From Spirochaetaceae bacterium (GTDB lineage: Bacteria; Spirochaetota; Spirochaetia; Treponematales; Breznakiellaceae), in contig JAIRPY010000094.1 in NCBI GenBank assembly GCA_031256905.1, positions 1 through 40,169 of the forward strand: a stretch of DNA of 40,169 nucleotides, read 5' to 3'. Under the pieces are notes generated by a model that saw nothing but the letters and a program-made list of their open reading frames with translations, was not told the DNA's origin and ran no database searches. Shown here in pieces: positions 9,342 through 30,243 of the stretch (positions within the stretch are counted from its first letter, which is position 1; each line of letters begins with the position of its first letter). The translations under genes were made by a program, and so were the position numbers.

Positions 9342-10196
9342 ATGGACAAAGCAAAAGCCGGTTACTTTGAAGGATTTATTTCGATAGGGGTGAATTCGGC
9401 GTTGTTTGCCCTGAAATTATGGGCGGGAATCCTCACGAACTCCCTGGCCCTGACCGCAGATGCCTGGCATACTTTTTCCGATTCGCTAAGCTCTCTGATT
9501 CTTATTATCGGGGTGAAACTTTCCTCAAAAAAAGCGGACCGGGAACATCCCTTCGGCCATGGCCGAATCGAGCATATTACCTCGCTTTTTATTGCTTTCT
9601 TCCTCGGCCTTATCGCCTATGAATTTTTAAAAACCGCGGCCGGGCAATTTATCCGCCGGGAATCCCCGGTTTACGGAAAAACCGCGCTGGCCGTTACGAG
9701 CCTTTCGATTATTGCGAAGGAACTCCTGGCCCAATACGCTTTTTCCATCGCCCGAAAAACCCAAAATCCCAGCGTAAGAGCCGACGGCTGGCATCACCGA
9801 AGCGACGCGCTGTCTTCCGTCGGGGTGTTAGCCGGCCTCTTGTTTGGGAAAAACCTGTGGTGGATAGACTCGGCCCTGGGCGGAGCTATAGCCTTCCTGC
9901 TGTTTTACACCGCCTATGGAATCATCAAAGCCAGTGCCGCGGCCCTGCTCGGCGAAGAGCCGGATCAAAATTTAATCGATCAGATAACTGAAGAGGTTAA
10001 GGGCCGATACAATCAGGATTTGGCTCTGCATCACTTTCATATACACAATTATGTGACCCATAAAGAATTGACTTTGCACATTCGTCTCGATAAAACCCTG
10101 AGCATCGACCAGGGCCATAGCATAGCGACCGATATTGAACATAAAATCGCGGAAAAGTTCGGGATTATCGCTACGGTTCATGTAGAACCTAACTAG
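9342..10196 (+). CDS. Cation diffusion facilitator (CDF) family transporter
   Basis: LTADAWHTFSDSLSSL, HPFGHGRIEHITS and VRADGWHHRSDALSSVGVL (HD..D metal motifs), plus a C-terminal cytoplasmic domain. Confidence 0.92.
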   Translation: MDKAKAGYFEGFISIGVNSALFALKLWAGILTNSLALTADAWHTFSDSLSSLILIIGVKLSSKKADREHPFGHGRIEHITSLFIAFFLGLIAYEFLKTAAGQFIRRESPVYGKTALAVTSLSIIAKELLAQYAFSIARKTQNPSVRADGWHHRSDALSSVGVLAGLLFGKNLWWIDSALGGAIAFLLFYTAYGIIKASAAALLGEEPDQNLIDQITEEVKGRYNQDLALHHFHIHNYVTHKELTLHIRLDKTLSIDQGHSIATDIEHKIAEKFGIIATVHVEPN

Positions 10197-10243
10197 GTAT
10201 ATTTTCTTTTCGGTCCTTTTCGTCCTCCCAGGACTTCTAGGTC

Positions 10244-10705
10244 CGGGAGCCTCATAGCCTGATGGGAAAGCCTCGTAGCCTGGGGGGAAAGCCCCACACC
10301 ATGATACGAAAACCTCATCCCATGGGGGGAAAGCCTCATCCCATGGGGGGAAAGCCTCATCCCATGGGGGGAAAGCCTCATCCCATGGGGGGAAAGGCTC
10401 ATCCCATGATACGAAAGCCCCACACCATGATACGAAAACCTCACACCATGGGGGGAAAGCCTCATCCCATGGGGGGAAAGCCTCATCCCATGAGGGGAAA
10501 GGCTCACACCATGGGGGGAAAGCCCCACACCATGATACGAAAACCTCACACCATGGGGGGAAAGCCTCATCCCATGAGGGGAAAGCCTCATCCCATGGGG
10601 AGAAAGGCTCACACCATGGGGGGAAAGGCTCATCCCATGGGGGGAAAGGCTCATCCCATGGGGGGAAAGCCTCATCCCATGGGGGGAAAGCCCCATAGCA
10701 GGGGT
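10244..10705. repeat. 21-bp tandem repeat array, about 22 units, mosaic variants
   Basis: Dominant unit ggaaagcctcatcccatgggg, with linked variants (ccatgata/cgaaaa, ggctcaca, ccccaca, ccatgagg). Outermost units are degenerate. Lies between convergent gene ends. Confidence 0.95.
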
Positions 10706-10735
10706 TCAGGGATGACTACAGGTTAGGGAGAAGAG

Positions 10736-12861
10736 CTATTCGGCTTTGAATTTGGAAAGTTCGGATTGGAGGAGGTCGATAGAACGTTTTGTTTCGCCGC
10801 TTATGGCGTTGACTTGGAGGACGGCCTGGTTAATTTTTTCCGCTTCTTTGGCCATTTCATTCATGCTGTCGGAGATTTCTGCGGTTCCTTGTTCTAAGGT
10901 TCGGCATTCGCCGCCGATTTCTCGGCCTCCTTGCCGCATTCGGGTGAAACTTTCCTTAATAGTTTGGGTTCCTTCGGTGAGGCGGGTGACGGCTTCCAGA
11001 ATCTGCTTGCTTCCGAGGTCCTGTTCTTCCATTGCGCTTCGGACCGCGCTCTCCTGGGCCGATACGGTTCTCACCCCTTGGTCGATAGCCTCAAAACGTT
11101 CGAGCACCCCCGCGGCGGCCGTAGATATTTTGTCAATCGAGGTCTTGATTTCCTTCAAAACTCCGGCGATGGTCTTTGATTGTTTCGAGGAAGATTCCGC
11201 GAGTTTTCGGATTTCTTCGGCCACGACCGCGAAACCCTTCCCGGATTCCCCGGCATGGGCCGCTTCAATAGCGGCATTCATCGAAAGCAGGTTGGTTTGG
11301 CTGGCGATATTCGCCATCACCGAGGTAATGCCGATAAGGCCCTCCGATTCTTTCGCCACATTTTGCATTTCCCCGGCAATGCCGCTCAAACCGGTTCGGC
11401 CGCTTTCGGCCGCGGCGGATAAGTTTTCCATATTTTTCGCGTTGCCTATCAAAGTTCGGGCCACATTGGCGATATTTGAAACCATTTCTTCGACCGCCGC
11501 GGAGGATTTGGCTATATCTTCGGCTTGAGTTTCAATATGTTTCCCCAAGTTTTCAATAACGCCGTCAATATCCCCGATAACCTTAGCAGTCTTGTCTACG
11601 TTTTTCCCCTGGGTTTGGGTTTGCCGCTCCACATTGCCGATACTAGCGGTAATTTCTTTGACGGCCAAGGCGGTTTCGTCCATGTTTTCCGCGAGCTTTC
11701 CCCCGATTTCCCCAAGACCCGCGGCCTGAACCTTCACCTGCCGGATAAGTTCCTGAATAGAATCAAGAATCTTGTTGAAGTAAGTTCCCATGGCGCCGAT
11801 TTCATCATTACTGTAGATTCTAAGCCGTTTAGTAAGGTCTCCTTCTCCTTCGGAAATGTCTTTCATGCGATCCGCTACTCGGTTGATGCGCCGGGAAAGA
11901 CTGTTGGACACCAGGTAAATGCACCCCGCCGCAACCACCGCCGCCCCGGCAATAAAAAGAAGCGCGAAATGAACGAGTTTTACCAAAGGCGCCCGGACCG
12001 TTTTGAGGTCCGCCATGGCAAGAATAAGATAAGGATTCTTTGCAGTCCCCACAGTAAAGGGATAAGCCACCCAAATAGCATCCTTGGAGGTGAAGGCGGT
12101 CGAGTCCTTTCGGGCAATGAGCCGAGGGATTATGTCCGCTCCCGCGCTGGGAAAGGACGCGCTGGTTCCTTGGGAGAAGGGTTTGCCGAGCATATCGTCT
12201 TGGTAGTGGGCGCAGATGGTTCCATCGCCGGCGACTACCGCGACATGGCCGGTTTGATAGGGCCGAAGACCCGCAACATAAGGCTGAAGAGGACCAATAT
12301 TCACCTGCATTCCCACAACCCCCAGGACCTTTCCCCGGACAATAATAGCAGATCGGACTTCGATAATCAGCGCGTTTTTGCCCTGCCTATTCATCGTCAT
12401 CGGGAAACTGACGAAGTCGTTTTGGTCCGTTTCCGCGAGGACCTGCTGGTACCCCGGGTAGGTCTCCGGGGTAATAATCTCGTTTAGGTGGCTGTAATAG
12501 GGGATAAACTCCGCATCTTCTTCGTCGATGACGCCTTTATGCCAGAAAGCGTACATTCCAGTTATATTTTCATCGGATTTGAGGATATTCCGCAGGATGT
12601 CGGTAAACTCGGTGCGGCGGATTTCGGGATAGACCTGTTCGTAGCCGCTCATAATGACAGAAAGAGCTTTGGTTTTTTCAAGGTAGGCTTTGTAATACTC
12701 GGTAACTTTGGCGGCGTAGAGGGCGGCTTGGCTGGTCATATCTTGCAGGATGACCCGGTCCTGCATTTTCGCTCCCTGGAAGAAGAGGACGACTATAATG
12801 ACCGCTATAAGGGTCAAAGTTAGAAGCGAATTGGTAAGGGTAAGCCGGTATTTGAACTTCA
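10736..12861 (-). CDS. Methyl-accepting chemotaxis protein
   Basis: N-terminal TM, large extracytoplasmic (Cache-like) domain, second TM, HAMP ([29 protein letters not shown]), signaling hairpin ([49 protein letters not shown]). Start at ATG ~12861 ([12 protein letters not shown]) preceded by SD-like GGGAG. Confidence 0.93.
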
Positions 12862-12960: not shown

Positions 12961-12989
12961 TTGCATTTAAAGTAATTGTATGGTAGAAT
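12961..12989 (+). promoter_or_regulatory. Predicted promoter of the methyltransferase/corrinoid operon
   Basis: TTGCAT (12961-12966), 17 nt, TAGAAT (12984-12989), SD taggag at 13005-13010, ATG 13016. The ORF-track start at 12980 would overlap this -10. Confidence 0.6.
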
Positions 12990-13015
12990 ACTTTAAAAAG
13001 CTGGTAGGAGAAAAG

Positions 13016-13825
13016 ATGCTCATAATAGGTGAAAAAATAAACGGGTCCATACCTTCGGTGGCCCGGGGGATTGCCGAGAAAAACGGCGATATGATTCGGG
13101 ACTTGGCGAAACGGCAGGCCGATGCAGGCGCGGCGTTTATCGATGTATGCGCTTCGGTGCCGCCTTCTGCGGAACTTGAAACCCTGCATTGGCTCATTGA
13201 TATGGTTCAGAGCGTAACCGATAGGCCCATCGCTATTGACAGTCCCAGCGCGCACATCTGCGCGGAAGCGATTCGGTTCTGCAAAAGACCGGGCCTGATC
13301 AATTCGGTTTCTATGGAAGGGGACAAAATCGATAAAATTTTCCCCTTGATTGCTGATACGTCTTGGGAATGCATCGCTTTGCTCTGCGACGATACGGAAA
13401 TTTCCAAAACCGTGGAAAAACGGCTGAGCGTTTTCGAGAAAATTATGCAAAAAGCCCAGGAATACCGCATCCCGGCGAACCGGCTTCACATTGATCCTTT
13501 GGTGCAGATGCTTTGCACTTCGGAGGACGGCATCCTCTCGATCCTCGAGGCCCTGCGGGAAATCAAGAAACGGTATCCGAAGATTCACATTACCGGCGGG
13601 GCCAGCAATATTTCCTTCAATCTGCCTATGCGCAGGTACATAAACCAGGGGTTCATCGTTCTTTCCATGAGCGCGGGTATGGACAGCGCGATTCTTGACC
13701 CTCTGAATCGGGATCTGATGGGGCTGATTTACGCCGCGGAAGCCCTCCTCGGGCAGGACGAATTTTGCATGGAATACATCGGCGCGTTCCGAGCCGGCCT
13801 TTTCGGGAACGAAAAACGTTCATAA
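13016..13825 (+). CDS. Methyltetrahydrofolate:corrinoid methyltransferase family (pterin-binding; MtgA/AcsE-like)
   Basis: MLIIGEKINGSIPSV, RQADAGAAFIDVCAS, PIAIDSPSA, NSVSMEG, HIDPLVQ and ITGGASNISFNLPMR. Pterin-binding TIM-barrel motifs. Confidence 0.87.
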   Translation: MLIIGEKINGSIPSVARGIAEKNGDMIRDLAKRQADAGAAFIDVCASVPPSAELETLHWLIDMVQSVTDRPIAIDSPSAHICAEAIRFCKRPGLINSVSMEGDKIDKIFPLIADTSWECIALLCDDTEISKTVEKRLSVFEKIMQKAQEYRIPANRLHIDPLVQMLCTSEDGILSILEALREIKKRYPKIHITGGASNISFNLPMRRYINQGFIVLSMSAGMDSAILDPLNRDLMGLIYAAEALLGQDEFCMEYIGAFRAGLFGNEKRS

Positions 13826-13874: not shown

Positions 13875-14507
13875 ATGACTAAAATTCAGGAAATCGCTCA
13901 AGCCGTTGAAGCGGGAAAATCCAAGATTGTCGGCGGTTTGGTAGAAGAAGCTCTTGCGGAAGGCCTCGATCCGGTCAAGATTTTAAACGAAGGCATGATC
14001 GGAGCCATGGACGTCGTAGGAGAGAAATTTAAACGGTCCGAAATTTTCGTACCCGAAATGCTGGTCGCGGCCCGGGCAATGAAAAAAGGCGTGGAAGTGC
14101 TGAAACCAAAACTCGCAGGAAAGGCCAACGTCGGCCTGGGCAAGTGCATCATCGGCACCGTCGCCGGAGATATGCACGACATCGGCAAAAACCTCGTCTG
14201 CATGATGATCGAAAGTACGGGCTTCGAGGTAATCGACTTGGGCGTCGACGTATCTTCAGAAAAATTTATCGACGCCCTGAAAAAAAACCCGGACGCCAAA
14301 ATCCTCGGCCTTTCGGCTCTGCTTACCACCACCATGCCGGCCATCAAGCAAACCATCGAAGCCGTTAACGCCGCAGGCCTAACGGGTTTCAAGATTATCA
14401 TCGGCGGCGCGCCGGTTACCGCAGATTACGCCAAACAAGTCGGCGCCGACGGCTACTCTCCCGACGCCGCCAGCGCGGCGGCCCTCGCAAAACAGCTGGT
14501 CGCCTAG
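13875..14507 (+). CDS. Corrinoid (cobalamin-binding) methyltransferase protein, MtgC/MtbC-like
   Basis: Canonical GTVAGDMHDIGKNLV (DxHxxG), SALLTTTM and IIIGGAPVT. N-terminal helical B12-binding cap. Confidence 0.93.
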   Translation: MTKIQEIAQAVEAGKSKIVGGLVEEALAEGLDPVKILNEGMIGAMDVVGEKFKRSEIFVPEMLVAARAMKKGVEVLKPKLAGKANVGLGKCIIGTVAGDMHDIGKNLVCMMIESTGFEVIDLGVDVSSEKFIDALKKNPDAKILGLSALLTTTMPAIKQTIEAVNAAGLTGFKIIIGGAPVTADYAKQVGADGYSPDAASAAALAKQLVA

Positions 14508-16103: not shown

Positions 16104-17360
16104 ATGGAATATATGTACATTGCCCAGTCGGCGAAAGAAACGGCTAAATGCAAAATCGGCAAGACTCAGAATTTAGAAAGAAGATTGAAAGAATATAACG
16201 CCATGACCGGATCAAAAAATAATGTTTACCAATACCTCTTCGCCGGCGAAGTGAAAAACGCCGGACCGGTAGAAAAGGCAGTGAAAGAAAAGTATCCCCA
16301 TCTGCGGGAGGAAAAAAGCCGGGAAATATATTTTTACAACGCCGTTCTTTTTAACGATTATGTCGGGTTTATAAAAGCGCATAAGCTCTTCGTGAAAGAA
16401 ATTATTTTTAAATCCGAAGATAAAATCGTAAAAGCAGTAAAGAAAATGCCTCCTTCCCTTGAAGAACGGGGAATGTCTAAAAATGACGTTTTGCAAAAAG
16501 CCAAAAAGATAAAAAACGATGAGTTCTACACCCGCTACGAAGATGTCGAAAAAGAAGTTTTAATGTACGATAAAAGCATCTGGCAAGATAAAGTTATCTT
16601 TTGCAACTGCGATGACCCGGTGGATAATGACGAAAAAAGAACTTCCGCCTTTGGGTTATATTTTCTGCGGAACTTCGAGGAACTCAAGGTAAAGCAATTA
16701 ATCTGCACCCATTACGGCGGAGGCATCGATTTATTCAACCCCGGCGGGAAAGGCTACATCTTCACCAAAGAAGGTTTCGGCGAAGGAAAACAATTTCCTC
16801 CGGGCTATACCGGCAGTTTCGATGATCCGTTATCGTTACAAATCCTGCGCGAAGAAGCGGACATCGTCTGCACGAATCCGCCCTTCTCAAAAGCCAAAGA
16901 GTATTGGAAAACCATTATCGATAGCGGGAAAAAATTTCTCGTCATTTCAAACATAGCAAATCCCCTTACAAACGCCTATTTACCCTACTTTTACGCCAAT
17001 AAAGTATGGGCCGGATATAACGAAGTGGATTGGTATTTAACGCCTAAAAAAGAACTTACCAGAGCGGCGGGGCATTGGTATACTAATCTTCCCATGAGAG
17101 ACCGCCCGAAAAGTAAAAATCTAAAAATACTAAAGCTGAAAGAAATTCCGGAAAAATATAAAAAGCATGACGATAACAAAATGTTGTTGGTAGATAATTG
17201 CTATATTCCGGGGGATTATAAAAAACCTTTTGCCGTTTCCGCCCGATCCATATTAAACGGTTTGCTGGAGAAGGGATATATTCTTATTCATGACAAGCGG
17301 TATACTCCGTATATAAACGGAAAAGAATGTTTCGCCCGGGTATTAGTGCAGAAAACCTGA
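16104..17360 (+). CDS. GIY-YIG/T5orf172-like domain fused to an EcoRI-type adenine-specific DNA methyltransferase
   Basis: N-term MEYMYIAQSAKETAKCKIGKTQNLERRLKEYN...REIYFYN (GIY-YIG/T5orf172 pattern). C-term NDEFYTRYEDVEKEV, VIFCNCDDPVDN and DIVCTNPPFSKAKEYW (NPPF methyltransferase motif). Confidence 0.8.
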   Translation: MEYMYIAQSAKETAKCKIGKTQNLERRLKEYNAMTGSKNNVYQYLFAGEVKNAGPVEKAVKEKYPHLREEKSREIYFYNAVLFNDYVGFIKAHKLFVKEIIFKSEDKIVKAVKKMPPSLEERGMSKNDVLQKAKKIKNDEFYTRYEDVEKEVLMYDKSIWQDKVIFCNCDDPVDNDEKRTSAFGLYFLRNFEELKVKQLICTHYGGGIDLFNPGGKGYIFTKEGFGEGKQFPPGYTGSFDDPLSLQILREEADIVCTNPPFSKAKEYWKTIIDSGKKFLVISNIANPLTNAYLPYFYANKVWAGYNEVDWYLTPKKELTRAAGHWYTNLPMRDRPKSKNLKILKLKEIPEKYKKHDDNKMLLVDNCYIPGDYKKPFAVSARSILNGLLEKGYILIHDKRYTPYINGKECFARVLVQKT

Positions 17361-17501: not shown

Positions 17502-20500
17502 TTACTCTTTCGGCATAATTTCAAGGACCAGTTCAACTTCGCCCTTGGAACGTTTTACCGCCCGGGCAATTTCGTCCACTTTCCAGCCTTGCCGGGCAAG
17601 CCGAATGATATTATCCCGCACTCCCAGGGATGGCGCGCCCTTGTCGTCGTCAAAAACTTTGTCTGTATTTCTAGGCGCATCCATCAGCTTAACCTGATCC
17701 AGCATTTGTTTGTTTAAATCTTCAAGCCGAGTTTCAGCCCGGGCAAGCCATTCCCGGGCCTTCTGCATATCCTTAATGCGCTCTTCAACGGTCGAAAGCG
17801 CGGTGTCCAACAAAGACAGTTTATCTGCAACTTCCCGAGCCCGGGTATTCTCTTCAGTAAGACTTGCAACCGCAGAACGAAGCGAGCCAATCTCCGCGGA
17901 AAGTCCGCTCACCTCGTCAGTGATATGCCGGGATATTTTTTCCGATTCCTGAAGGGATTTGAAATTCCGATCTATGCCGTCGTTGGTAGCGTCTAAAGTT
18001 TGATTCTTTTTTTCTATGCGCTGATATTTTTCTTCGGTATCGACCAGCGCGTCGTTGAGTTTGCGTATCTGAATCTGAATTTGCTGAAGAGTATCGTCGG
18101 AATCAGAAACTTCGGTGAGCTTTTCCTCGACAGCCGCAGACACCTGCAAGAGCCGGTTAAACTCGGTTTCCATCTGTTCAATCCGGTGCTTCTCTGTGAG
18201 AAACCGAGTCATCTTCGCGTTTACCTCATCTTCGAGCCGTTTAATTTTAACGAGCTGGCCCTCCAAATCCATAGCTTCAAGTCTGCGCTGATCGATGCGG
18301 TCGTAGTCGCCCTGAAGTTCCGCAAGCCGGCGTTCCAGTTCTACTTTCAGCTCGTCGGTACGCTCAAAAAGCCGAGTCTGGCTGGCGAACTCTTTTATGC
18401 GCCGATCCGCTTCTTTTATCGCGGAATCTAACGTTTTCACATCTTCGCTGATCCGGGCAAACACTTCTGCGCGATGCGTATCTGCGTCTTTGTCCGCGTC
18501 GTTTATGGCGGAACGGAAGGCCTTCAAACGCTCCTCGCTTTCTGCAAGGAGTTCCGCAGACCGTTTCCGGGCTTCGCTCAGGGATCCGTCCAGTTCTTGC
18601 AGTTCTTGAGCGAACTCAGTCTGACGCTTGTCTAAATCCTGCCGGGACCCTTCCAGCTTATTCGCAATCTCCTGATTTTGAGCTTCAATTTTTTCGGCGA
18701 CAGCGTTAATGCGTTCTTCCAAACCGCTCTGACTGTGCTGAATTTGTTCAGTAATACTGCGTTCATACCGTTCGATTTCCGCTTTCGCCGAAGCCTCTGC
18801 GGAAGCCCGGGAGGTTTCTAAACTCTGCTGAATCTGCGCTTGCAGGGCATCAAGAGAATCCCCGGCGGATTGCATTCGGGAGCGCAGGTCTGTTTCAAAC
18901 CCGTCCGCCTCGGTTTTGACGCTCTCAAGCTCCGATAGTAACGCTTTCTTTTGTTCAGCGAAAGCTCCTCGCAGTTCTTCATGAAGGGTCTGCTCTTTTT
19001 GTTTATACTGGGCGTCCGCATCCTGAATAAAACCCGTAATTTTCACGTGCTGACTTTCCTGCCATTCCTTGAGCCACTGCCCGATATCCTCGCTCCGCTT
19101 CCCCAGATCCTTGGCGAAATCATCTTCGAACCTCTGAAACTGCTCCGCCACATTCTGATAAGCCTGAGACTTTAAAACCGCCAAATCCTGTTCCGCATCG
19201 TTCATGCCGGTTTTCAGGGCTTCTAACGCCGTTTCAAACGCTGAAACCGCCTTTTCCCGGGCTTCCGCAGAATCCGACTCAAACCGGGAAATGTCGTCTT
19301 GCAGTCTCTGCTCAATGCCGCTCATATACCGGCGCAGTTCAGCGTCAAGCCCCGAAGCGTCATCCGCAAGAGTCTCAAGCCGTTTAAAATGCTCCCCCTG
19401 AGCCGTCTGATACTCCTCAAACTTGGCCTCGGTTTCTTCCAAAATTCTGCGCTCCACCGAATCCGCGGCAGACCGCAAACTGGTTTCCAGCGCGGCCATA
19501 GCATCGTCAAAATGAGAACCTAAAGCCGCTATACGTTGTTCCATCGCAGAAGAAGATTCGTCAAGAGAAGAAAGTAAACCTTGGGCCTTCGCTTCCTCGG
19601 CTTCACTGATCGACTTCCACTGCTCAAACCGGGCGTCCAGGGCCTGCAAAGCCTGCTGTTCCGTTTCCCGGGCCTGGTGTTCCAGCCGGGTCCGGAGATC
19701 CGCCCCGGCGCGTTCCGCTTCCTGCCGGGCTTCGGCGAGGTTTTGCCCTAGGGCCTCAATCTGAGCGTTCCACTTAGCCAGTTCTTCTCCGGCCAGGCCC
19801 TTCGCCCGCTCTTCCGCGGCGGCCGCCGCTTCTGCCAGCTCCCCGGCGACCCGGGATGCGGTATCGTCAATTTTCGTTCCCACCTCGGCGAGGCGAGATT
19901 CCGCAGATTCAAGGTCCTGGAAAAGCTGATTCCGCAGATTCCCAAAAGCGGATTCCAACTCCGCAAATTGCCGGCGCATTTTGGCTTCTTCTTCGCCTGC
20001 GGCAGACAGGGCTTTCTCTTTGGCTTTGACAACCGCCAGGGCCATCTCGTTTTCCAGTAAAGCCTGCGCTTGATTAAGCCGGTCCTCGATGCCTGTAAAC
20101 CGCTCCTCCTCGGAGGCCAGCCCGGCGGTAATGCGGCGTTCCGCCTCCGCGCAGAAAGCCTCAGTTTCAGCCATAACCCGCCGAATCTCCGCGTCCTCCG
20201 CAGAGGCCGCCTGTTTCCAAGCCTCAAGTCGGCGGGCGTTCTCCTCAGCTCCGGCGCGCTCGAGGTCTTCCCGGCCCCGCCGGAGCCGGTCCTCCAATTC
20301 CGCCAACGATACCGCGCTCTCGGCCGAGGCGTCCTGCAACTCCCGCAGAAGGGAGCGGGTCCTTTCGTTCTCGGCGTCCATACTGAGTTTCCACTGTTCC
20401 AGCCCCGCGCCGGCCAGGGCGGCGGCTTTTTCCTCCCCGGACTTTACGGTTTGGAGCATCTGGTTCTCAATGTTTGCCCTGAGGGTTTCAAGATTCCCGC

Positions 20501-23500
20501 GTAACGTCTCAAACTGCCTTTGGGCTTCGGCGATTTCGTCAAAAACGCGCTGTTTAGTCTCCCTGGAAACTCGTTCCAGTTCGGCCAAAAGCTGACGGGC
20601 TTGGGCCTCTCCGGTTTCTCCGGCTTGTTTCCATCGTTCCAGCCCCTGATCGCTCAGGGATTGGGCTTTTTCTTCTGCTTCGGCCGCGGCTCTGGTTAGA
20701 AGCTCTTCGATTTGATCGGCGGTTTCCTGAATTTTTGACTGAATGCCGTCGAATCGGCCCTCGTTTTCGGCGTATGCGGCTTCCAACTCTCCGAGAAGCT
20801 GACGAGCTTTGCGGTCTCCTTCTTCCGCGGTTTCTTTCCAGCGTTCCAGTCCGCGATTGCTTAGGGATTGGGCTTTTTCCTCCGCGTCCCGGACCGCGTT
20901 TTCCATCGTTGAGGCGATGCGATCCGCCGCGGCGGTAATTTGCGTTTGAGCTTCATCGAATCGGCCCTCGGCCCGGGCGGATTCCTCGGCGATCCGGTCA
21001 AGCAGAGCGCGAACCTTCTCTTCTTCGGCTAGGATTGTCTGTTTCCATGTTTCCAGAGCGGAAGTCCAGGCCATTTCGGCGCGTTTTTCCGCGGACCCGA
21101 GGCCCTCGTTTATAATCTGCTCGGCCCGGCTGGCCGTATCGTTGATCTTCGTCTGGAGTTCCTCGAATTGCCCGGCGGTTTCCCGGATTTCTTCGGAAAT
21201 CCGGCGTTTCGAGGTTTCCAAAGAAGTTTCCAACTCGGCCAACTGGGAGCGGAGTTGGGCATCCTCGGTCTCGACGGTCTGCTTCCATTTGGCAAGTTCC
21301 TGAGATGCGGTTTCCGCGGCGCGTTTTTCCGCAGACTGTAGGGTATTAGTCATGGTCGACTCGATAGTATCGCAGGTTTCGTCGATTTTACTCTGCAAAT
21401 GTTCGATTCGTCCCTGGGCGTTTGCGATTTCACTGGTAATTTCGAGTTCCGTGTCTTCCAAAGAGGTTTCCAACTCGGCCAACTGGGAGCGGAGTTGGGC
21501 ATCCTCGGTCTCGACGGTCTGCTTCCATTTGTCGAGTTCTGCGGTGAAAAAGGTTTCGATCCCCGCAAGGCCCTTCCGGATTTCGGCGTCTTTGGTTTCA
21601 AGATGCTGTTTCCACTGGCTGAGTTTGGCGTCCGCGATTTCTGCGGCTTGGGCTTCCGCGCTGGCGAGGGCGGCTTCCAAGTCCGCGAGGGCGGCCCGAA
21701 CCTGGGCGTCCCGTTCTTCCGCGGCGGCTTTCCATTTATCGAGTTCCCCGGCGGCTTCCGCGGACGCGAGTTCCTGCGCGCTGGCTATGGCGGTCCGAAT
21801 CCGATCTTCGATATGAGCGGCGGCTTCGTTGAGTTCGGTCTGGAGCGCGTTGATCTGCCCGGTTCCTCCGAGGATTTCCTGGGAAATCCGTTCTTTTGTA
21901 TCTGTCAGGGAAAGTTCAAGGCTGGCAAGAACGTTTTGAACCTTTACTTCCTCGGTTTCCACGGCTTGTTTCCAGCGTTCCAGTTCGGTTTCCGCGGCGG
22001 CCGAAGCTTGATCGTGCGCGTTATCCCACGCCTGCGTCAGTTCGGATTCGATATGCCCGGCGGTTTCGTCAAGTTTTGTCTGCAGCGCTTCAAGTCTTTC
22101 CGTGATTTCAGCGATGCCTTCGGAGGCCTGCTGTTTTGCTTCGTCGGCCGCGGTTTCAATATTTGCAAGCAGGTCTTTGGCGAGGCCGTTTTGGGTTTCC
22201 ACGGCTTGTTTCCAGCGTTCCAGTTCTTCGTCGGCCCGCAGAAGTCCTTCTTCTTTTGCGCTGGCGACGGCGTTGACCAATTCTACTTCGATATGGGATG
22301 AAGTGGCGTCTAATTTACTTTTCAGTCCTTCGATTTGCTTGCCGGCCCCGGCGATTTCCCTAGAAATTTGATTTTGCGTGTCTTCGAGGGAAGTTTCCAG
22401 CACGGAAATGATCTGTTTCGCCTTACCTTCCGCTTCTTCGACGGCTTGTTTCCATTTTTCGAGTTCCGAATCTGCAATAGCCAGGGCCCGTTCTTCGGCT
22501 TCGCTGACCTCATTTTCGATATGTCCGATAAGTTCGTCGATTTTAGTTTGAATCCCGTCAAGCCGATGGTTCATCTGTTCTATTTCGTTGGCCATATACT
22601 TTTCGGTTTCCGCTCCGGCGTTTTCGAGGTCCCGGAGGAGCTGACGGGATCGTTCGTCGCCTTCGGCCGCGGCTTCTTTCCATCGGTCGAGGCCTGCGGT
22701 CATTTCCTCGGCGATGCGTCCTTGGGTTTCGGCGGCGGCGTTCAGCATCGTATCCTGCATTTGCTGGATATTTTCGTCCATATCTTCCCGGAGTTTGTTT
22801 AATTTTTCCGTTATCCTTTGGGTTTCGCCGCCGAATTCGGTTTTGAAGGCCCCAAGGGAGGTCTGCATTTCCTCAAGAATTCGACTCGAGGCGGCATCCC
22901 GTTCTTCCACCCGCTGATTCCACTGTTCAAAGCGGTCTGCGGCGTTTTGGGAAATTCGTTCCTCGATGGTTTTTCCCTCGGTTCCAATCTGATTCCGCAA
23001 AGCTCCCAGGGAAGCATCAATATTTTCCTCCAGGTCCCGGAGCCGTTGTTCCATAGCGTCGGTTTCCGCGGTGAAATGGGTTTTAATTTCCCCGGAGGCG
23101 GCTTCAAGGTCCGCGAGAACCTGCCGGGTTTTCGCGTCTCCTTCCATAGTAAGTTTGTTCCAGCTTGCGATGCGTTCTTCGTTGGCTTCGAGGATTTGCC
23201 GGTCCAGGGTCTGCATCCGGTCGGCGAAACGTTTTTCCAGATCCTCGATTCTTGAATCCGCAGATTTTTTAACCTCGGCGATGTGTTCTTCCAGCATAGC
23301 GGTTTGGGCTGTGGTATTTTCCCGGGATTCGTCGGCTATATTTTTCAGGTCCTCGAGAAAACGTTTCATCCTTTCATTTTCCGATTCCACGGTCATTTCC
23401 CAACTGCTCCGCTGGGCCTCGAGGCGTTCCTGAAGGTCCTGAAGATCCCGGTTCCATTCTTCTTTAAAAAGATTCTGCTGATTTTCCAATTCGGAAGCGT

Positions 23501-24389
23501 CGGTTTTCCAGCTTTCTTTACAGTCGGTGACGAGTTTTTGCGTTTCTTTGAGCTGGGTCCGGGCGTATTCGAGGTGGGCGTCGAGGTCCTTTTCGATGGC
23601 GGTCTGCAACATTTCGATGCGTTCTACCGCTTGTTCCCGCAGTTTGAGAAGCGCGGCGTTTTCCATGTTATCCGCCCGAACCGCGGCTTGTTCGAGGGCG
23701 TCATTAAGACTGCGGCTGATGAAATTCATATCCCGGTCGATGCGCTCGATCCGGCTTTGCTCGGCTTGTTCGATGGCTTCTTTGCCTTCGGCGATTCGGC
23801 GTTCCGCCTGTTCCGCGTCGGACCGCAGGGTATTCACCTGATCCGCCGCGGAAGCCAGGACCTGCCGGGCTATATCTTCCAGCGCGGCGGCGTTTTCTGC
23901 GGCGAACCGTTGTTCCACTTCGGCCAGCCCCTGCTCGAGGGCTTCGAATTTTTCTTTACTGTCCGCGACTCGTTTATTGACTTTTTCGACGAATACGGAT
24001 TCTTCCCGAATGCGATTGAGGTTTTCCTGGACCCGGACGCTCATTTCGATGAGTTCCTTGAGGGAAACGTCGTATCCGTTGAGGCGTTCATCGATGCGGG
24101 TCACCGCGGCGGCTTTTGCCGCGAGTTCTTCGTCGGTAATTTGCAGACGGCGCATCAGTTCCTTCGCGGCTTTCTGTTGCACATCCAGGGAAATGCTGTA
24201 ATCTTTCACGGCCCCTTCTTTTTCCGCGACAAATTCGGTGAGTTCCTCCTTGAGTTCCGTAGCGTACTGCTGGATTTTCTGCATGGATTGGCTGTGTTTA
24301 TCGATTTGGCGGTACAAAAAGAGAACCATCCCCACAATGCCGAGGGTCGCTATGTTCCCCAGGGAAAAAATTTCAGAAAAAATATCCAT
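17502..24389 (-). CDS. Giant SpiroCoCo-type coiled-coil protein (2295 aa), N-terminal TM and C-terminal HTH
   Basis: N-term IFSLGNIATLGIVGMVLFLYRQI membrane segment. Over 2000 residues of E/A/K/R/Q-rich coiled coil with repeated LExWKQxxExE modules. C-term VRDNIIRLARQGWKVDEIARAVKRSKGEVELVLEIMPKE. Confidence 0.85.
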   Translation of the reverse strand: MDIFSEIFSLGNIATLGIVGMVLFLYRQIDKHSQSMQKIQQYATELKEELTEFVAEKEGAVKDYSISLDVQQKAAKELMRRLQITDEELAAKAAAVTRIDERLNGYDVSLKELIEMSVRVQENLNRIREESVFVEKVNKRVADSKEKFEALEQGLAEVEQRFAAENAAALEDIARQVLASAADQVNTLRSDAEQAERRIAEGKEAIEQAEQSRIERIDRDMNFISRSLNDALEQAAVRADNMENAALLKLREQAVERIEMLQTAIEKDLDAHLEYARTQLKETQKLVTDCKESWKTDASELENQQNLFKEEWNRDLQDLQERLEAQRSSWEMTVESENERMKRFLEDLKNIADESRENTTAQTAMLEEHIAEVKKSADSRIEDLEKRFADRMQTLDRQILEANEERIASWNKLTMEGDAKTRQVLADLEAASGEIKTHFTAETDAMEQRLRDLEENIDASLGALRNQIGTEGKTIEERISQNAADRFEQWNQRVEERDAASSRILEEMQTSLGAFKTEFGGETQRITEKLNKLREDMDENIQQMQDTMLNAAAETQGRIAEEMTAGLDRWKEAAAEGDERSRQLLRDLENAGAETEKYMANEIEQMNHRLDGIQTKIDELIGHIENEVSEAEERALAIADSELEKWKQAVEEAEGKAKQIISVLETSLEDTQNQISREIAGAGKQIEGLKSKLDATSSHIEVELVNAVASAKEEGLLRADEELERWKQAVETQNGLAKDLLANIETAADEAKQQASEGIAEITERLEALQTKLDETAGHIESELTQAWDNAHDQASAAAETELERWKQAVETEEVKVQNVLASLELSLTDTKERISQEILGGTGQINALQTELNEAAAHIEDRIRTAIASAQELASAEAAGELDKWKAAAEERDAQVRAALADLEAALASAEAQAAEIADAKLSQWKQHLETKDAEIRKGLAGIETFFTAELDKWKQTVETEDAQLRSQLAELETSLEDTELEITSEIANAQGRIEHLQSKIDETCDTIESTMTNTLQSAEKRAAETASQELAKWKQTVETEDAQLRSQLAELETSLETSKRRISEEIRETAGQFEELQTKINDTASRAEQIINEGLGSAEKRAEMAWTSALETWKQTILAEEEKVRALLDRIAEESARAEGRFDEAQTQITAAADRIASTMENAVRDAEEKAQSLSNRGLERWKETAEEGDRKARQLLGELEAAYAENEGRFDGIQSKIQETADQIEELLTRAAAEAEEKAQSLSDQGLERWKQAGETGEAQARQLLAELERVSRETKQRVFDEIAEAQRQFETLRGNLETLRANIENQMLQTVKSGEEKAAALAGAGLEQWKLSMDAENERTRSLLRELQDASAESAVSLAELEDRLRRGREDLERAGAEENARRLEAWKQAASAEDAEIRRVMAETEAFCAEAERRITAGLASEEERFTGIEDRLNQAQALLENEMALAVVKAKEKALSAAGEEEAKMRRQFAELESAFGNLRNQLFQDLESAESRLAEVGTKIDDTASRVAGELAEAAAAAEERAKGLAGEELAKWNAQIEALGQNLAEARQEAERAGADLRTRLEHQARETEQQALQALDARFEQWKSISEAEEAKAQGLLSSLDESSSAMEQRIAALGSHFDDAMAALETSLRSAADSVERRILEETEAKFEEYQTAQGEHFKRLETLADDASGLDAELRRYMSGIEQRLQDDISRFESDSAEAREKAVSAFETALEALKTGMNDAEQDLAVLKSQAYQNVAEQFQRFEDDFAKDLGKRSEDIGQWLKEWQESQHVKITGFIQDADAQYKQKEQTLHEELRGAFAEQKKALLSELESVKTEADGFETDLRSRMQSAGDSLDALQAQIQQSLETSRASAEASAKAEIERYERSITEQIQHSQSGLEERINAVAEKIEAQNQEIANKLEGSRQDLDKRQTEFAQELQELDGSLSEARKRSAELLAESEERLKAFRSAINDADKDADTHRAEVFARISEDVKTLDSAIKEADRRIKEFASQTRLFERTDELKVELERRLAELQGDYDRIDQRRLEAMDLEGQLVKIKRLEDEVNAKMTRFLTEKHRIEQMETEFNRLLQVSAAVEEKLTEVSDSDDTLQQIQIQIRKLNDALVDTEEKYQRIEKKNQTLDATNDGIDRNFKSLQESEKISRHITDEVSGLSAEIGSLRSAVASLTEENTRAREVADKLSLLDTALSTVEERIKDMQKAREWLARAETRLEDLNKQMLDQVKLMDAPRNTDKVFDDDKGAPSLGVRDNIIRLARQGWKVDEIARAVKRSKGEVELVLEIMPKE

Positions 24390-25066: not shown

Positions 25067-25117
25067 CGTATTCCTCTTTCATACTAAAAATATACCCGAA
25101 TGGCAAGTACCGCTTTA

Positions 25118-25132
25118 TGCTATACTACAAGT
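25118..25132 (+). promoter_or_regulatory. Predicted extended -10 promoter, leaderless arrangement
   Basis: TGC-TATACT (25118-25126), acaagt, ATG 25133. No SD. Confidence 0.55.
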
Positions 25133-26011
25133 ATGTATGATATTACCGCTTTGTACGAGGCCGAAACCGTGCCGCAGGCGATTGCTCTGTTGCAAGAGCA
25201 TCCCCGGGCGTACATTATCGCTGGAGGCAGTGATATGCTGATCCGCATCCGGAAGGGAGGGCTCCCAAATTGCGAGCTGGTGAGCCTCCGGGGCATCCTG
25301 AATCTGCGGGGAGTTTCCCTCGAGGCCGACGAAACCCTCAGAATCGGACCCCTCACGGTTTTTTCCCATCTCGTCCGGGACCCCCTGATCCGCCGGCACA
25401 TTCCGCCCCTGGCCGAAGCCGCAGAATTCGTAGGAGGACCCCAAATCCGCAACGTCGGCACCATCGGCGGCAATATCTGTAACGGCGCCAGCTCCGCAGA
25501 TACCGCCCCAACCCTCCTCGCTTGGGATGCGATCCTTGAATATACCGGTCCCGCCGGAATCCGCCAGATCCCCATCGAAAACCATTACCTCGCCCCGGGG
25601 AAAACCGCCCTCGCCCGGGACGAAATCCTCACCGCAATCCTCATCCCCAAGCAAAACCGGGAAGGATACCACGGGTGCAGTCTCAAATACGCCCGGCGAA
25701 ACGCTATGGATCTTGCGATCTTGGGCTGTTCGGTAAATGTCAGGCTTGAAGCCGGTATCCTGCGGGATGTACGGGCGGCTTACGGCGTGGCAGGCCCCGT
25801 GCCTCTGCGAGCCCGAACCGCCGAAAACGTCATCCGAGGAAAGCCCCTCTCCGAAGGAGCCTCCCTCGGCAAAGCCGTGCGAAACGCAATAAACCCCCGT
25901 ACAAGCTGGCGGGGAACCCAAGAATTCCGGCTCCACTTGGCAGAAGAATTGACAAACCGAGCCTTGGCCCAGGCAATCCGCGCCGCAGGAAGCTCCGTAT
26001 GCGATGCGTAA
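25133..26011 (+). CDS. Molybdenum-hydroxylase (xanthine dehydrogenase/CO dehydrogenase family) FAD-binding subunit
   Basis: YIIAGGSDMLIRIRKG, GGPQIRNVGTIGGNICNGASSADTAPTLLAWDA and YARRNAMDLAILGCSV. Confidence 0.92.
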   Translation: MYDITALYEAETVPQAIALLQEHPRAYIIAGGSDMLIRIRKGGLPNCELVSLRGILNLRGVSLEADETLRIGPLTVFSHLVRDPLIRRHIPPLAEAAEFVGGPQIRNVGTIGGNICNGASSADTAPTLLAWDAILEYTGPAGIRQIPIENHYLAPGKTALARDEILTAILIPKQNREGYHGCSLKYARRNAMDLAILGCSVNVRLEAGILRDVRAAYGVAGPVPLRARTAENVIRGKPLSEGASLGKAVRNAINPRTSWRGTQEFRLHLAEELTNRALAQAIRAAGSSVCDA

Positions 26012-26469
26012 TAAACGGAAGACCCGCAGAAGCCCGGGTAGATGTCACGATGTCCCTGGCGGATATGCTCCGGGATGAGTTCGGCCTTACCAGTGTAAAG
26101 AAGGGCTGTGAAGTAGGAGAATGCGGGGCCTGTACGGTCCTGGTCGATGGGGAAAGCGTTAACGCCTGCATTTACCTTGCGGTGTGGGCGGAGGGCCGGG
26201 AGATTCTCACCGTTGAAGGCCTTACCCGGCTTGACGGCGGCCTTTCGGAAGTTCAGCAGGCCTTCATCGAGGAAGGAGCCGTGCAGTGCGGATTCTGCAC
26301 CCCGGGATTTCTTTTGACCGCCCAGGAGCTTGTTCAGCGGGGCGGGGCCTACACCGAAGAGGAACTGCGGAAAGCTCTTTCCGGGCATCTCTGCCGCTGT
26401 ACGGGCTATGAAAATATACTAAACGCGGTAAAGCGATTGGTCGATCTGACGCCGCCCGGAGACGTCTAA
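25999..26469 (+). CDS. Molybdenum-hydroxylase [2Fe-2S] subunit
   Basis: CEVGECGACTVLVDGESVNAC (plant-type 2Fe-2S) and CGFCTPGFLLTAQEL...GHLCRCTGYENILNAV (second cluster). Overlaps the FAD-subunit stop. Confidence 0.95.
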   Translation: MRCVINGRPAEARVDVTMSLADMLRDEFGLTSVKKGCEVGECGACTVLVDGESVNACIYLAVWAEGREILTVEGLTRLDGGLSEVQQAFIEEGAVQCGFCTPGFLLTAQELVQRGGAYTEEELRKALSGHLCRCTGYENILNAVKRLVDLTPPGDV

Positions 26470-27134
26470 CCCTTTACCCCCGGGGTGTTCGTCTGGGGGT
26501 TGCAATAAGCTTCTGCGATTTCCGCGGCGGATACCGCGTCTTGGGCGTACATATCCGCGCCGATAGCCTCGCAGTAGTGTTTTGTTACCGGCGCGCCGCC
26601 GATCATAATTTTTACTTTTTCTCGCAATTTTGCGTCGGCCACGGCTTGGGTTAGGGCTTTTAGGTGGGGCATTGTCGTGGTGAGCGATGCGGTGCAGACG
26701 ATTATCCGGGCGTGTTCTCGTTCTGCGGCTTCGATGAACCGTTCGCTTGGGACGGACGCGCCTAAGTCGATTACCCGCAGGCCTAGGCCCCGCATCATTA
26801 CTCCTATTAGATTTTTTTCTATTTCCTGAATGTCTCCTTTAGCCGTGCCGATTACCACGGTTCCCTTTTGCGGGGATTCGCAGGCTTCAAGATAGGGTTG
26901 AAGCTGGCGGATTCCGAGATTTAAAGCCCGGGCGGTAATCAGCACTTCGGTGATGAAAATTTCGTTTTTCCGGTACCGGCGTTCCACTTCCGCCATGCCA
27001 GGAATAAGCCCGTGTTTCAGGATGTCCCCGACGGGGTACTGCTCCGCGATGGCCCGGGAAATCAGGCTCATCATCTCCTGGGCTTTCCCGGACTGCAGGG
27101 TCCGGGCAATTTCTTGCAATTCAAGCATTCCCAT
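26466..27134 (-). CDS. Corrinoid-protein-family protein with altered cobalt-ligand motif
   Basis: MtbC/MtgC-like throughout (N-terminal cap, TASLTTTMPHL, IMIGGAPVT), but DxHxxG is replaced by GTAKGDIQEIEKNLIG. Confidence 0.9.
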   Translation of the reverse strand: MGMLELQEIARTLQSGKAQEMMSLISRAIAEQYPVGDILKHGLIPGMAEVERRYRKNEIFITEVLITARALNLGIRQLQPYLEACESPQKGTVVIGTAKGDIQEIEKNLIGVMMRGLGLRVIDLGASVPSERFIEAAEREHARIIVCTASLTTTMPHLKALTQAVADAKLREKVKIMIGGAPVTKHYCEAIGADMYAQDAVSAAEIAEAYCNPQTNTPGVKG

Positions 27135-27172: not shown

Positions 27173-28561
27173 TTATTCATCCTTGATGAGTCTGCGGCAG
27201 GCGAGGGAAAAGTTGTGTTCCGAGATCTCCTGCGCCATTCCGCCCTGTCCCCGGTATTTTCCCGGGCTTACGCCGATGTAATGTTTAAAAGTCTTGGAAA
27301 ACCAGCTTTGATCTTCAAAACCGCAGGACCCCGCGATTTCGCTGAGCGAAAGATCCGTTTCGGTGAGCATCCGGCTGGCCTTTTCGACTCTGATGCGGTT
27401 GAGGTAACTCGACAGATTTTCCCCCATTTCTTCCTTGAAAATCGTGCTGAAATAGGGCGCGGACAAACCCGAAGCCGACGCAATTTCTTGCAGACTGATC
27501 TTCCGGGTGTAGTTTTCCCAAATGAACCGCTCGGCTTTCCGCAGAGCCGACGCGTGCCGCACCCCGTGGAACGAAAAGATCTGCCCGGCCATGCGTTCAA
27601 CAATGCTGTGGAGCACGTCGGTTAATTCTTCCACATTTTGGGCCCTTTGAATCCGTTTTAGATGCTCGTTGTTGGTTTCCAGGAGAATCTTTTCCGTGGT
27701 GCCTGAAGCCGCATGGGTTCGGGACAAGAGAACCACAAGCTCTATAGCCCGAAACTGGATGTACCGAAACTGATCCGGATTGGCGAAGAGCAAAACCGCC
27801 AAAAGCTCGTTAAGGATGCGCCGGCCCGTATCATTATCCCCCCGCCGGAGCGCGGACAGTAACATCCGTTCCTTGTCCAAAGGATAATCCGGCAAGGGGG
27901 ATCCCGCAGGATACTGCTCCTTCAGTTCCTGAATCTTCGCGGATAAATCTGTCTGCTGTTCGGCGCGGCGTTTCATGGTTTTGTAATACTCTTCGCTTCC
28001 GGCGGACAGGGATTCCGCCAAAATCAGCATCAGTTCCGCCAGAGCTTTAATCCGGTCCGAATCGCCTTTGGGAAACCGGGCTACTTTCTCCCGAATTTCT
28101 TCTATCGAAACGTTTCCGCCCCCCATCTGATACATGAGGTCTGCGGTTTCCTTAGGGTCGATTCCCAAAAAACCGGTCCCCACCAAGGATCCGACAAACC
28201 GGTCCTCCGCATATACCGGGCTGGTCCAGAACATAAAACCCAACTCGCACATGTATATATGGGACCCCCGGAACCGGTTCGATTCCTTGATCCCGTTGAT
28301 GTGCATTTCCGCGCAGGGACCCGCCGAAAAATCCTGGGCAACCTCGGGCTCCACTCCCCCTCGATGCTTCATGCAGTAAAGGCAGGGCGTCCAAACCCCA
28401 TCCTTGACCGCCTCAGGAATAGGCAGATAAGTATGATCCTCGACGCAGGCAAGCGCGCCCGTGGCTTTTGCGTATACGGTCAACATTTTGTATGCCTTGA
28501 GCAAGATAGGATCAGTCCGGCTTGAGGCGTTGACGTTGCTTTTTTCTTTTTTTTCTTTCAT
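27173..28561 (-). CDS. PocR-sensory-domain AraC-family transcriptional regulator
   Basis: N-term PocR-like segment with CLYCMKH...CAEMH...YMCELGFMFWTSPVY. C-term AraC HTH (ISLQEIASASGLSAPYFSTIFKEEMGENLSSYLNRIRVEKA...CGFEDQSWFSKTFKHYIGVSPGKYR). Confidence 0.88.
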   Translation of the reverse strand: MKEKKEKSNVNASSRTDPILLKAYKMLTVYAKATGALACVEDHTYLPIPEAVKDGVWTPCLYCMKHRGGVEPEVAQDFSAGPCAEMHINGIKESNRFRGSHIYMCELGFMFWTSPVYAEDRFVGSLVGTGFLGIDPKETADLMYQMGGGNVSIEEIREKVARFPKGDSDRIKALAELMLILAESLSAGSEEYYKTMKRRAEQQTDLSAKIQELKEQYPAGSPLPDYPLDKERMLLSALRRGDNDTGRRILNELLAVLLFANPDQFRYIQFRAIELVVLLSRTHAASGTTEKILLETNNEHLKRIQRAQNVEELTDVLHSIVERMAGQIFSFHGVRHASALRKAERFIWENYTRKISLQEIASASGLSAPYFSTIFKEEMGENLSSYLNRIRVEKASRMLTETDLSLSEIAGSCGFEDQSWFSKTFKHYIGVSPGKYRGQGGMAQEISEHNFSLACRRLIKDE

Positions 28562-28582: not shown

Positions 28583-29998
28583 TTAATAATATATACTTTC
28601 TTCCTTCTTGTATTGTACTTTATTGTAATACGCCGGTTTTATTTTGACAATCGGCGAGTACCCCCCGGATTCCCGGTATTTTCCAGGACTCACTCCGAGG
28701 TAACTTTTGAAGATCTTCGAGAACCAGCTTTGATCCTCAAAACCGCAGGCGCCGGATATTTCGCTTAAAGGCAGATCCGTTTCAGAAAGCAGGGCCGCCG
28801 CCTTTTCCACCCTCAGTCGGTTCAGATAACCGGAAAGGTTTTCTCCCATTTCTTCTTTAAATATACTACTAAAATAGGACGCCGACAGTCCCGAAACCTC
28901 AGCGATTTCCTGCAAACTGAGTTTTCGGGTGTAATGTTCCCAAATATACCGCTCGGCCTTCCGCAACGCGGACGCGTGCCGGACCCCCTGAAACGAAAAA
29001 ATGCGCCCTCCAATGCAGTCTATGATGCCCCCCAGGATGTGCATAATTTCCGAGACGCTCTTGGATTCCTGAATCTTCTTGAAATACCGGTTATTGACTT
29101 CGAGGGCCGTCCGGTACTCGGCGGATTCCTTGGTATGTCCCGCGCTGAGGGCCTCCCGGGAAAGCATCACCGCCAATTCAATAGCCCGAAGTTGCATAAA
29201 ATCCACATTCCCCGGATTAGCCGCGCCAATGCCCTCCAGAAGTTCATGCAGAATCTTCCGGGCATTATCGTAATCTCCGCGCCTCAGCGCGGCAAGCAAA
29301 AGCCGCTCCTTATCCAAAGGATGATCCTGCTTTTTTCCCTTGGCCGCCTTCCCCGGCCCCGCCGGAACCCCGGGTTTTTTATACATCCGGGCGAAGTTTT
29401 CATTTTCTTTGGACAGCCCGGTCTGCTTCGGATTCGGCTGTTTCATACCGGAAATTTGTTCCGCGCAAAACCCAAGCATCTGGGCGAGAGCTTTTATCTC
29501 CTCATACGTTCGGGACCGGCTTTGCGCGGCATACTTGAGAGCTTCGGTCTCGGTCACCGCGCCTTTGCTGAGGACAAGAATCCGCCGGATTACTTCCTGG
29601 GGGTCTACGTGCAGTACCTGTCCGGCGTTCAAGGCCCCGATGAACCGTCCCCCCGCGTAGATCACACTGATCCAGAAGATCAATCCCAGTTCGCAGGTGT
29701 AAATGTAGGTCCCGCCGTTTCGGTGGGCTTCGAACATACTCTCCGAGTGCATGGGATTGCAGGGATATTCCCAATTTCCCCAGTCCCGAGGCGCGTCCTG
29801 GCTGTGCTTGCGGCAGAGTTCGCAGAAAAATGTTCGGTCCTTATAAGGCACAATCTTCAGAGGATTGCCGCTGTGGTCCATCAAAGCCACGGAGCAGTCC
29901 GCCGCCCGCTGATAAGAAGTCATCACTTTAGAGGCTTTCATCAGTAAGGGCTCCACTTCCCGGCGGTTTATAATACTGGATTGACAACAAGGATTCAT
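28583..29998 (-). CDS. PocR-sensory-domain AraC-family transcriptional regulator (paralogue of the 27173-28561 product)
   Basis: PocR-like CELCRKH...CNPMH...YTCELGLIFWISVIYAGGRFIGALNAGQV. AraC HTH nearly the same as the neighbour. SD AGGAG upstream. Confidence 0.88.
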   Translation of the reverse strand: MNPCCQSSIINRREVEPLLMKASKVMTSYQRAADCSVALMDHSGNPLKIVPYKDRTFFCELCRKHSQDAPRDWGNWEYPCNPMHSESMFEAHRNGGTYIYTCELGLIFWISVIYAGGRFIGALNAGQVLHVDPQEVIRRILVLSKGAVTETEALKYAAQSRSRTYEEIKALAQMLGFCAEQISGMKQPNPKQTGLSKENENFARMYKKPGVPAGPGKAAKGKKQDHPLDKERLLLAALRRGDYDNARKILHELLEGIGAANPGNVDFMQLRAIELAVMLSREALSAGHTKESAEYRTALEVNNRYFKKIQESKSVSEIMHILGGIIDCIGGRIFSFQGVRHASALRKAERYIWEHYTRKLSLQEIAEVSGLSASYFSSIFKEEMGENLSGYLNRLRVEKAAALLSETDLPLSEISGACGFEDQSWFSKIFKSYLGVSPGKYRESGGYSPIVKIKPAYYNKVQYKKEESIYY

Positions 29999-30243
29999 AA
30001 AAAATCTCCTATAAATACATCAGTAATTAAAAGTGTACTCATAGCTGTTTTGAACGGACTACACCCTAATGGCTATTTTTCTTTTTCTTTTTGAAAAAAA
30101 TGTCTGCCCCCAGGTTAAAGGCCCATCGATCTTAGCAAGGGGTCATACAACCGAAGAAAAAATAATTCATGGAACATTCAGGACTGATATATAGAGAAAA
30201 TTTACTGTAGGGTATATATTTTTTCCGAGGATTCAGGCATCGA

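Follow-up and report, generated by a model that had tools for sequence, protein, structure and literature searches.

The locus and the corrinoid-like protein

The DNA analysed here (the window) is a 40,169-nucleotide stretch of a Spirochaetaceae bacterium (contig JAIRPY010000094.1), part of a 2.09-Mb genome that is 73% complete in 137 contigs. Three genes follow one another closely on its minus strand. The first encodes a PocR-AraC protein of 471 aa (regulator 2, 28583..29998) and lies 21 bp upstream of the second, which encodes a PocR-AraC protein of 462 aa (regulator 1, 27173..28561) and in turn lies 38 bp upstream of a gene for a degenerate corrinoid-fold protein (26466..27134). Each regulator combines a PocR domain (PF10114, 38.9 and 64 bits for regulators 1 and 2) with an HTH_18 domain (79.6 and 81.1 bits). 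The operon is preceded by a conserved 28 bp cis element, AAAATAGCCATTAGGGTGTAGTCCGTTC (30052..30079, minus strand), which is its probable operator or promoter. For comparison, the window also holds an intact canonical paralogue of the third gene with the motif GDMHDIGKN (13875..14507, plus strand), located behind a gene for an MtgA-like methyl-THF:corrinoid methyltransferase (12980-13825).

The minus-strand frame at 26466-27134 translates into a 222-aa protein containing ...IGTAKGDIQEIEKNLIGV... and, as an earlier note on this DNA had stated, is intact over all 222 codons. Pfam recognizes both halves of a methyltransferase corrinoid protein, the PF02607 cap (54.4 bits, E 1.4e-14) and the PF02310 Rossmann domain (76.6 bits, E 1.9e-21), both above cut-off; these two B12 domains are the only ones found, with no DNA-binding domain or MerR-type HTH in the 222 residues. 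The AlphaFold model has a mean pLDDT of 88.9, and its best Foldseek matches are MttC (7xcn) and MtmC (3ezx); the Rossmann half superimposes on the Moorella corrinoid protein 1y80 at 0.8 Å over 120 columns. In NCBIfam the protein comes closest to MtgC and the pyl_corrinoid subfamily, scoring 168.4 of 370 (NF047996) and 154.1 of 215.3 (TIGR02370), under the curated cut-offs; since the intact paralogue (42% identity) also falls below these cut-offs, the sub-threshold scores say little. A foreign or contaminating gene is ruled out by the base composition, which is like that of the neighbours (GC3 0.62 against 0.60-0.65, with similar codon use), and by the presence of the operon across the genus.

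In the order of PF02607 and PF02310, in length and in its Foldseek matches the protein is like the MttC/MtbC/MtmC/MtgC carriers (TIGR02370, NF047996). Unlike them, it is without the cobalt-ligand His, the Gly of DxHxxG and the SxL motif, and its gene is linked to a PocR-AraC pair rather than to a methyltransferase. Residues D101-I-Q103-E-I-E106, within GTAKGDIQEIEKN (26811..26849, minus strand), align to GDMHDIGKN of the paralogue; Q103 (codon 26826-26828) is found at the position of the cobalt-ligand His and E106 (codon 26817-26819) at that of the Gly. Translation and alignment thus bear out the two replacements that the earlier note had read from the DNA. Its statement that TASLTTTM is kept was half right, as intact homologues have S-A-L where this protein has T148, A149 and S150 (26685..26693, minus strand), with both S148 and L150 of SxL replaced. 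The IGGAPVT segment is retained in the window, as had been noted, including both residues of the GG pair (G179 and G180, 26595..26600, minus strand), but the first Gly is S, T, A or Y across most of the degenerate clade described below and is Ser in 14 of 15 sequences from the window genus and its sister genus.

Loss of the corrinoid site across a clade

We searched 99 relatives as well as 200 family genomes, retrieved the loci and obtained 101 homologues for a phylogenetic tree. Forty of these, each from a different genome and together representing 18 genera of the family, have lost the His or the Gly of DxHxxG, usually both, and this common loss rules out a private mutation. Chance or a sequencing artefact is likewise ruled out, because the three closest orthologues (76-79% protein identity), from the MAGs Spirochaetaceae bacterium Cf509_bin31 and Treponema sp. 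Pc512_bin91 and bin5, carry an identical GDIQEIEKN in three other genomes. This form is present in four of the five gene-bearing members of the window genus; the other motifs of the clade include GDLKDMEKN, GDIQDTEKN, GDMRDTEKN, GENEETTKN, DDTEETLKN and more. Calculated without the motif columns, the tree unites the 40 degenerate homologues in a single clade (SH-aLRT 99), and the motif state requires a single change on it (0 of 500 shuffles as low). The sister of this clade (genome G038, locus L059) has an intact GDLHNIGKN, one PocR-AraC gene and a gene for a G3E GTPase. A clade altered at the lower-ligand position, which the earlier note had suggested looking for with Gln, therefore exists, with Gln as one replacement among Q, R, E, K and Y; no orthologue with an intact DxHxxG, which the note had taken as a sign of a strain-specific mutation, occurs inside it. 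The degenerate form was not found outside the family, where the best homologues whose motifs were read (394 genomes of the order, 296 of the phylum) are all intact.

After removal of redundancy, residue conservation was compared between 24 clade members and 31 intact homologues. Positions that are conserved among the intact homologues but not in the clade include H103, G106, V110, D127, S148, L150 and G179, together with G51, F54, V61 and A68 of the helical cap. The sequence D123-L124-G125 as well as G180, P182 and A193-D194 are invariant or nearly so in the clade, which has also acquired newly conserved residues, for example Y33, E140, C147 and C188. In the window genus and the sister genus, 14 of 15 sequences have Q103 and 14 of 15 have E106. 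Two of the 24 non-redundant members have His at position 103, neither of them with the Gly of DxHxxG. F54 and V61, which are seven residues apart, correspond to the two cap residues that lie over the upper cobalt face (Phe708 and Leu715 in MetH). In SAerR these are Trp94 and Phe101, and MetH has Phe in place of the Trp (PMC9144470). Counting nine site residues (D101, H103, G106, S148, L150, G179, G180, F54 and V61), intact homologues keep eight or nine, clade members two to four and the window protein three; D101 and the second Gly of the GG pair are the site residues that are retained. When contact residues were set against the remaining conserved positions in a Fisher test, the result was weak (p 0.04, with a partly assumed contact set), and we place no weight on it.

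Since the defining residues were tested and are absent, the protein is not a functional corrinoid carrier, and it is almost certainly not a methyl carrier today. With the site lost on both faces at once, binding of corrinoid in the normal way is unlikely, though it may be bound weakly or unusually. The earlier note had led with the idea that corrinoid is bound base-on or His-off. Absence of the His would not by itself decide this, because MetH has been observed to bind cobalamin base-off/His-off, loading it with the His flipped off (PMC10567725). Solved structures of a CarH His-to-Ala mutant also exist among the structure search matches. A protein that still binds corrinoid in one of these modes could act as a B12 or methyl-B12 sensor reporting to the PocR-AraC pair, a role that would fit its descent from a corrinoid carrier, its good predicted fold, the retained D101 and second Gly, and the sensing of B12 by the same-fold regulators AerR and CarH. 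However, H103, G106, S148, L150, G179, F54 and V61 are lost jointly and with varied replacements, and Glu or Asp at the motif Gly would be expected to crowd the nucleotide tail. With both faces of the site lost and Gln merely one of many replacements, base-on or His-off binding is no longer the leading idea, and we consider a corrinoid sensor rather unlikely.

The cleft between cap and Rossmann domain might instead bind another ligand such as haem, a C1 compound or a different cofactor. A ligand switch of this kind has been published for the fold: the SCHIC domain of AppA, a B12-binding fold in a regulator, has replaced cap residues and binds haem instead of cobalamin, which is not its ligand (PMC9144470). 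The newly conserved residues of the clade would be in keeping with such a switch. Yet SCHIC still has an axial His for haem, two residues from the usual position. No such His is conserved in the window clade, and its alignment shows neither a His nor a Met newly conserved at the site. The replacements also differ between genera, and genus-specific replacements are unlike the adoption of one new ligand; we regard this alternative as quite unlikely.

The PocR-AraC pair and its upstream element

Co-occurrence with PocR-AraC genes, which the earlier note had proposed to examine, holds for 38 of the 40 degenerate loci, where a PocR-AraC gene is directly upstream on the same strand. One exception (L104) is at a contig end; the other (L114, genome G191) is real, with no PocR-AraC gene within 4.7 kb upstream. 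A second PocR-AraC gene precedes the first in 36 of 36 loci with enough sequence, and the pair contains the only PocR domains detected in the window genome (73% complete). Cys 60, 63, 83 and 105 of regulator 1 are invariant in 36 orthologues and have counterparts in Cys 59, 62, 80 and 102 of regulator 2; across both PocR domains the four Cys are conserved in 83-100% of orthologues and may form a metal or Fe-S site.

No MtgA-like gene is found near the degenerate copies, the one exception being the intact cluster that lies separately in the window, at a distance of 12 kb. The conserved neighbour clusters of the degenerate gene, part of which were covered by Pfam, include no methyltransferase or RACo. 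The window genome, at its 73% completeness, has two RACo-like genes, and MTTB-type methyltransferases were not found in it.

Several loci carry further genes. A CobW/HypB/UreG-type G3E GTPase gene follows the corrinoid gene in ten loci (L059 at 10065-11024, L051, L052, L053, L095-L098, L100 and L101); its product has 319 aa at the intact sister L059 and 192-267 aa at degenerate carriers, and the gene is absent in the window. Upstream of the PocR-AraC pair, 18 loci (including L055, L057, L058, L062-L064, L067, L102 and L103) have one or two MalT-like LuxR regulator genes, of which the window has none. Downstream, the window has genes for the XdhB and XdhC subunits of xanthine dehydrogenase (25100-26469, plus strand) without an adjacent molybdenum subunit; a single molybdenum-subunit domain was detected in this genome, on a different contig (C73). 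As xdhC is convergent with the corrinoid-like gene (4 bp overlap) and the two genes are not conserved at other loci, they are ruled out as part of the system.

Alignment of the upstream regions places the element, with consensus TTTTTAGCCRTTAGGGTGTANTNCGTTC, about 67 bp upstream of regulator 2. Of 36 clade loci, 35 carry it with seven differences or fewer, and the closest among 200 shuffles of each region has 8-10. It was not seen at the intact sister (G038). The window genome has a single copy. Scanning 25 genomes with a 24-base core and up to three mismatches gives exactly one site in 20 of them and none with the reversed control, and this single site per genome rules out a wider regulon acting through the element. 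Sites away from a degenerate gene occur in G044, which has the PocR pair without the gene, and in G192, near a contig end. On the simplest reading, the regulators would control their own operon through the element, either as an AraC operator or as a promoter that depends on an activator. The regulator pair and the single element per genome make up a compact module that apparently regulates itself.

Such a module does not appear in the literature searched. A PocR-domain histidine kinase has been suggested to regulate the mec cassette (PMC9768040); beyond that paper, searches on PocR with corrinoid, PocR with Treponema, and the AraC family with corrinoid protein returned nothing relevant. PocR-AraC regulators of corrinoid methyltransferase loci share PF10114 and HTH_18 with the window regulators and, in sister families, are encoded by a single gene beside an intact carrier; the window differs in having two of them, with a cis element of their own and without a methyltransferase. 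PocR-AraC beside an intact carrier is likewise found in other families of the order and class, with RACo adjoining in L069. At locus L039 of the Clostridia MAG RGIG6407, one gene (6369-7937, plus strand) joins an AraC regulator (cupin and HTH) with an intact corrinoid protein in a single product, and the next gene encodes another corrinoid protein, likewise intact; the fusion shows physical coupling of AraC and corrinoid domains elsewhere.

Selection and repeated gene loss

Pairwise dN/dS was calculated by the Nei-Gojobori method, leaving out saturated pairs. Within the window genus the values are 0.05-0.11 for the corrinoid-like gene, 0.04-0.06 for regulator 1 and 0.09-0.14 for regulator 2, and are rough because dS exceeds 1. 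In the sister genus (g10) the corrinoid-like gene gives 0.09-0.16, except in pairs with G126 (L107), where the ratio rises to 0.27-0.33; G128, the neighbour of G126 in the regulator tree, has lost the gene.

Orthologues of regulator 1 are present in 102 of 200 family genomes (E 1e-90). We read 41 further loci of this regulator, most of which have the pair, often with the cis element. None has an intact corrinoid-like gene, and in approximately 30 the sequence behind the pair is long enough for one to be seen. The pair, mostly with the element, is therefore present without the gene in some 30 other genomes of the family, and its persistence there indicates that the corrinoid-like protein is not essential to it. 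Frames behind these gene-less pairs are thioredoxin-like in L204-L206 and mostly spurious elsewhere. Hidden, more degenerate copies were ruled out: open frames of up to 210 aa lack similarity to the family, and L214 (genome G185) alone holds a remnant, a frameshifted stretch behind regulator 1 (562-715, minus strand) that represents a recent loss.

In the tree of regulator 1, the first branch within the family is L059, whose carrier is intact. Mapped onto this tree, the presence of the degenerate gene requires nine changes, at least six of them forced by well-supported branches; the gene has been lost at least six times. As the degenerate clade also arose only once, next to L059, this pattern points to an ancestral linkage, after which the gene would have been dropped repeatedly in separate lineages.

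These losses, the remnant in G185 and the raised ratios in pairs with G126 are what might be expected of a functionless passenger in slow decay after loss of the methyltransferase system. Against this, the frames are open in 40 genomes, the ratios of the window genus are low despite dS above 1, and Q103 and E106 have become fixed in two genera, which makes mere decay very unlikely. The earlier note's impression that this is not obvious decay is borne out by purifying selection where measured and by the many lineages that retain the gene. Of the frameshifts in relatives that it would have taken as a mark of a decaying pseudogene, the remnant in G185 is the sole case.

A proposed role beside the regulators

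The comparisons establish that the site is lost throughout the clade, which has a single origin; that the gene is under purifying selection where this was examined, strictly linked to the pair and later lost repeatedly; and that the cis element is conserved. The reading that we favour, with somewhat better than even confidence, is that a former methyl carrier is now an accessory subunit of the PocR-AraC pair, which would bind one or both regulators and tune their activity at their own promoter, carrying no methyl group and probably no His-ligated corrinoid. Contact between the proteins, autoregulation through the element and the absence of bound corrinoid are what we infer. The sensor or regulatory role that the earlier note had offered among its options gains weight from the sequence comparisons; that the constant core is formed by the regulator pair with its cis element, and not by the corrinoid protein, had escaped it.

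A plausible course of events would begin with a carrier of MttC/MtbC/MtgC type encoded beside the gene of a PocR-AraC activator, an arrangement still seen in sister families. In one branch of the family the activator gene would have been duplicated and the new upstream element would have arisen, and the neighbouring carrier would have lost corrinoid-site residues on both faces, with its fold and other residues staying under selection. At present the protein would bind the pair as an accessory subunit and tune its activity in the manner of AerR. Taken further, the carrier may have been rebuilt into a regulatory subunit, cofactor-free or with another ligand, that links a tandem PocR-AraC switch to some signal and represents a B12-fold co-regulator of an origin separate from AerR and CarH; this extension we put forward tentatively, at slightly less than even odds.

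Known regulators provide partial parallels. The AerR/PpaA co-regulators of PpsR/CrtJ are, like the product of the window gene, stand-alone B12-fold proteins encoded beside a transcription factor. HP1 of R. rubrum, of the AerR/PpaA type, lacks most conserved residues of the B12 motif and still regulates (PMC10734443), so that a regulatory role without these residues is possible in this fold. The window protein differs in being of methyl-carrier lineage and in having a PocR-domain AraC protein, instead of PpsR/CrtJ, as its candidate partner. By analogy, it most likely works like a B12-fold co-regulator; membership of AerR/PpaA is not claimed. CarH/LitR photoreceptor repressors have the same cap and Rossmann fold in a regulator, but CarH has its own MerR-type DNA-binding domain and the His, and the window protein is without both.

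Here a metabolic cofactor carrier has lost its cofactor site yet is retained beside a regulator, and relatives display the states before, during and after: an intact carrier with one regulator, a degenerate carrier with two, and the switch kept with the gene lost. This opens to experiment the questions of when a carrier ceases to bind corrinoid and of what keeps it from then on. It also carries a warning for annotation: a protein may score well against corrinoid-carrier models, and be taken for a methyltransferase system in a gut spirochaete, without carrying corrinoid.

Other features of the window

A 21-bp tandem array of approximately 20.6 copies (10264-10696) leaves frames open on both strands. 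In the product of the gene at 16104-17360 (plus strand), a T5orf172/GIY-YIG-type domain is joined to an EcoRI-type adenine methyltransferase. At 17502-24389 (minus strand) an open frame of 2295 aa consists mostly of repeated units that are rich in glutamate and alanine and probably form coiled coils.
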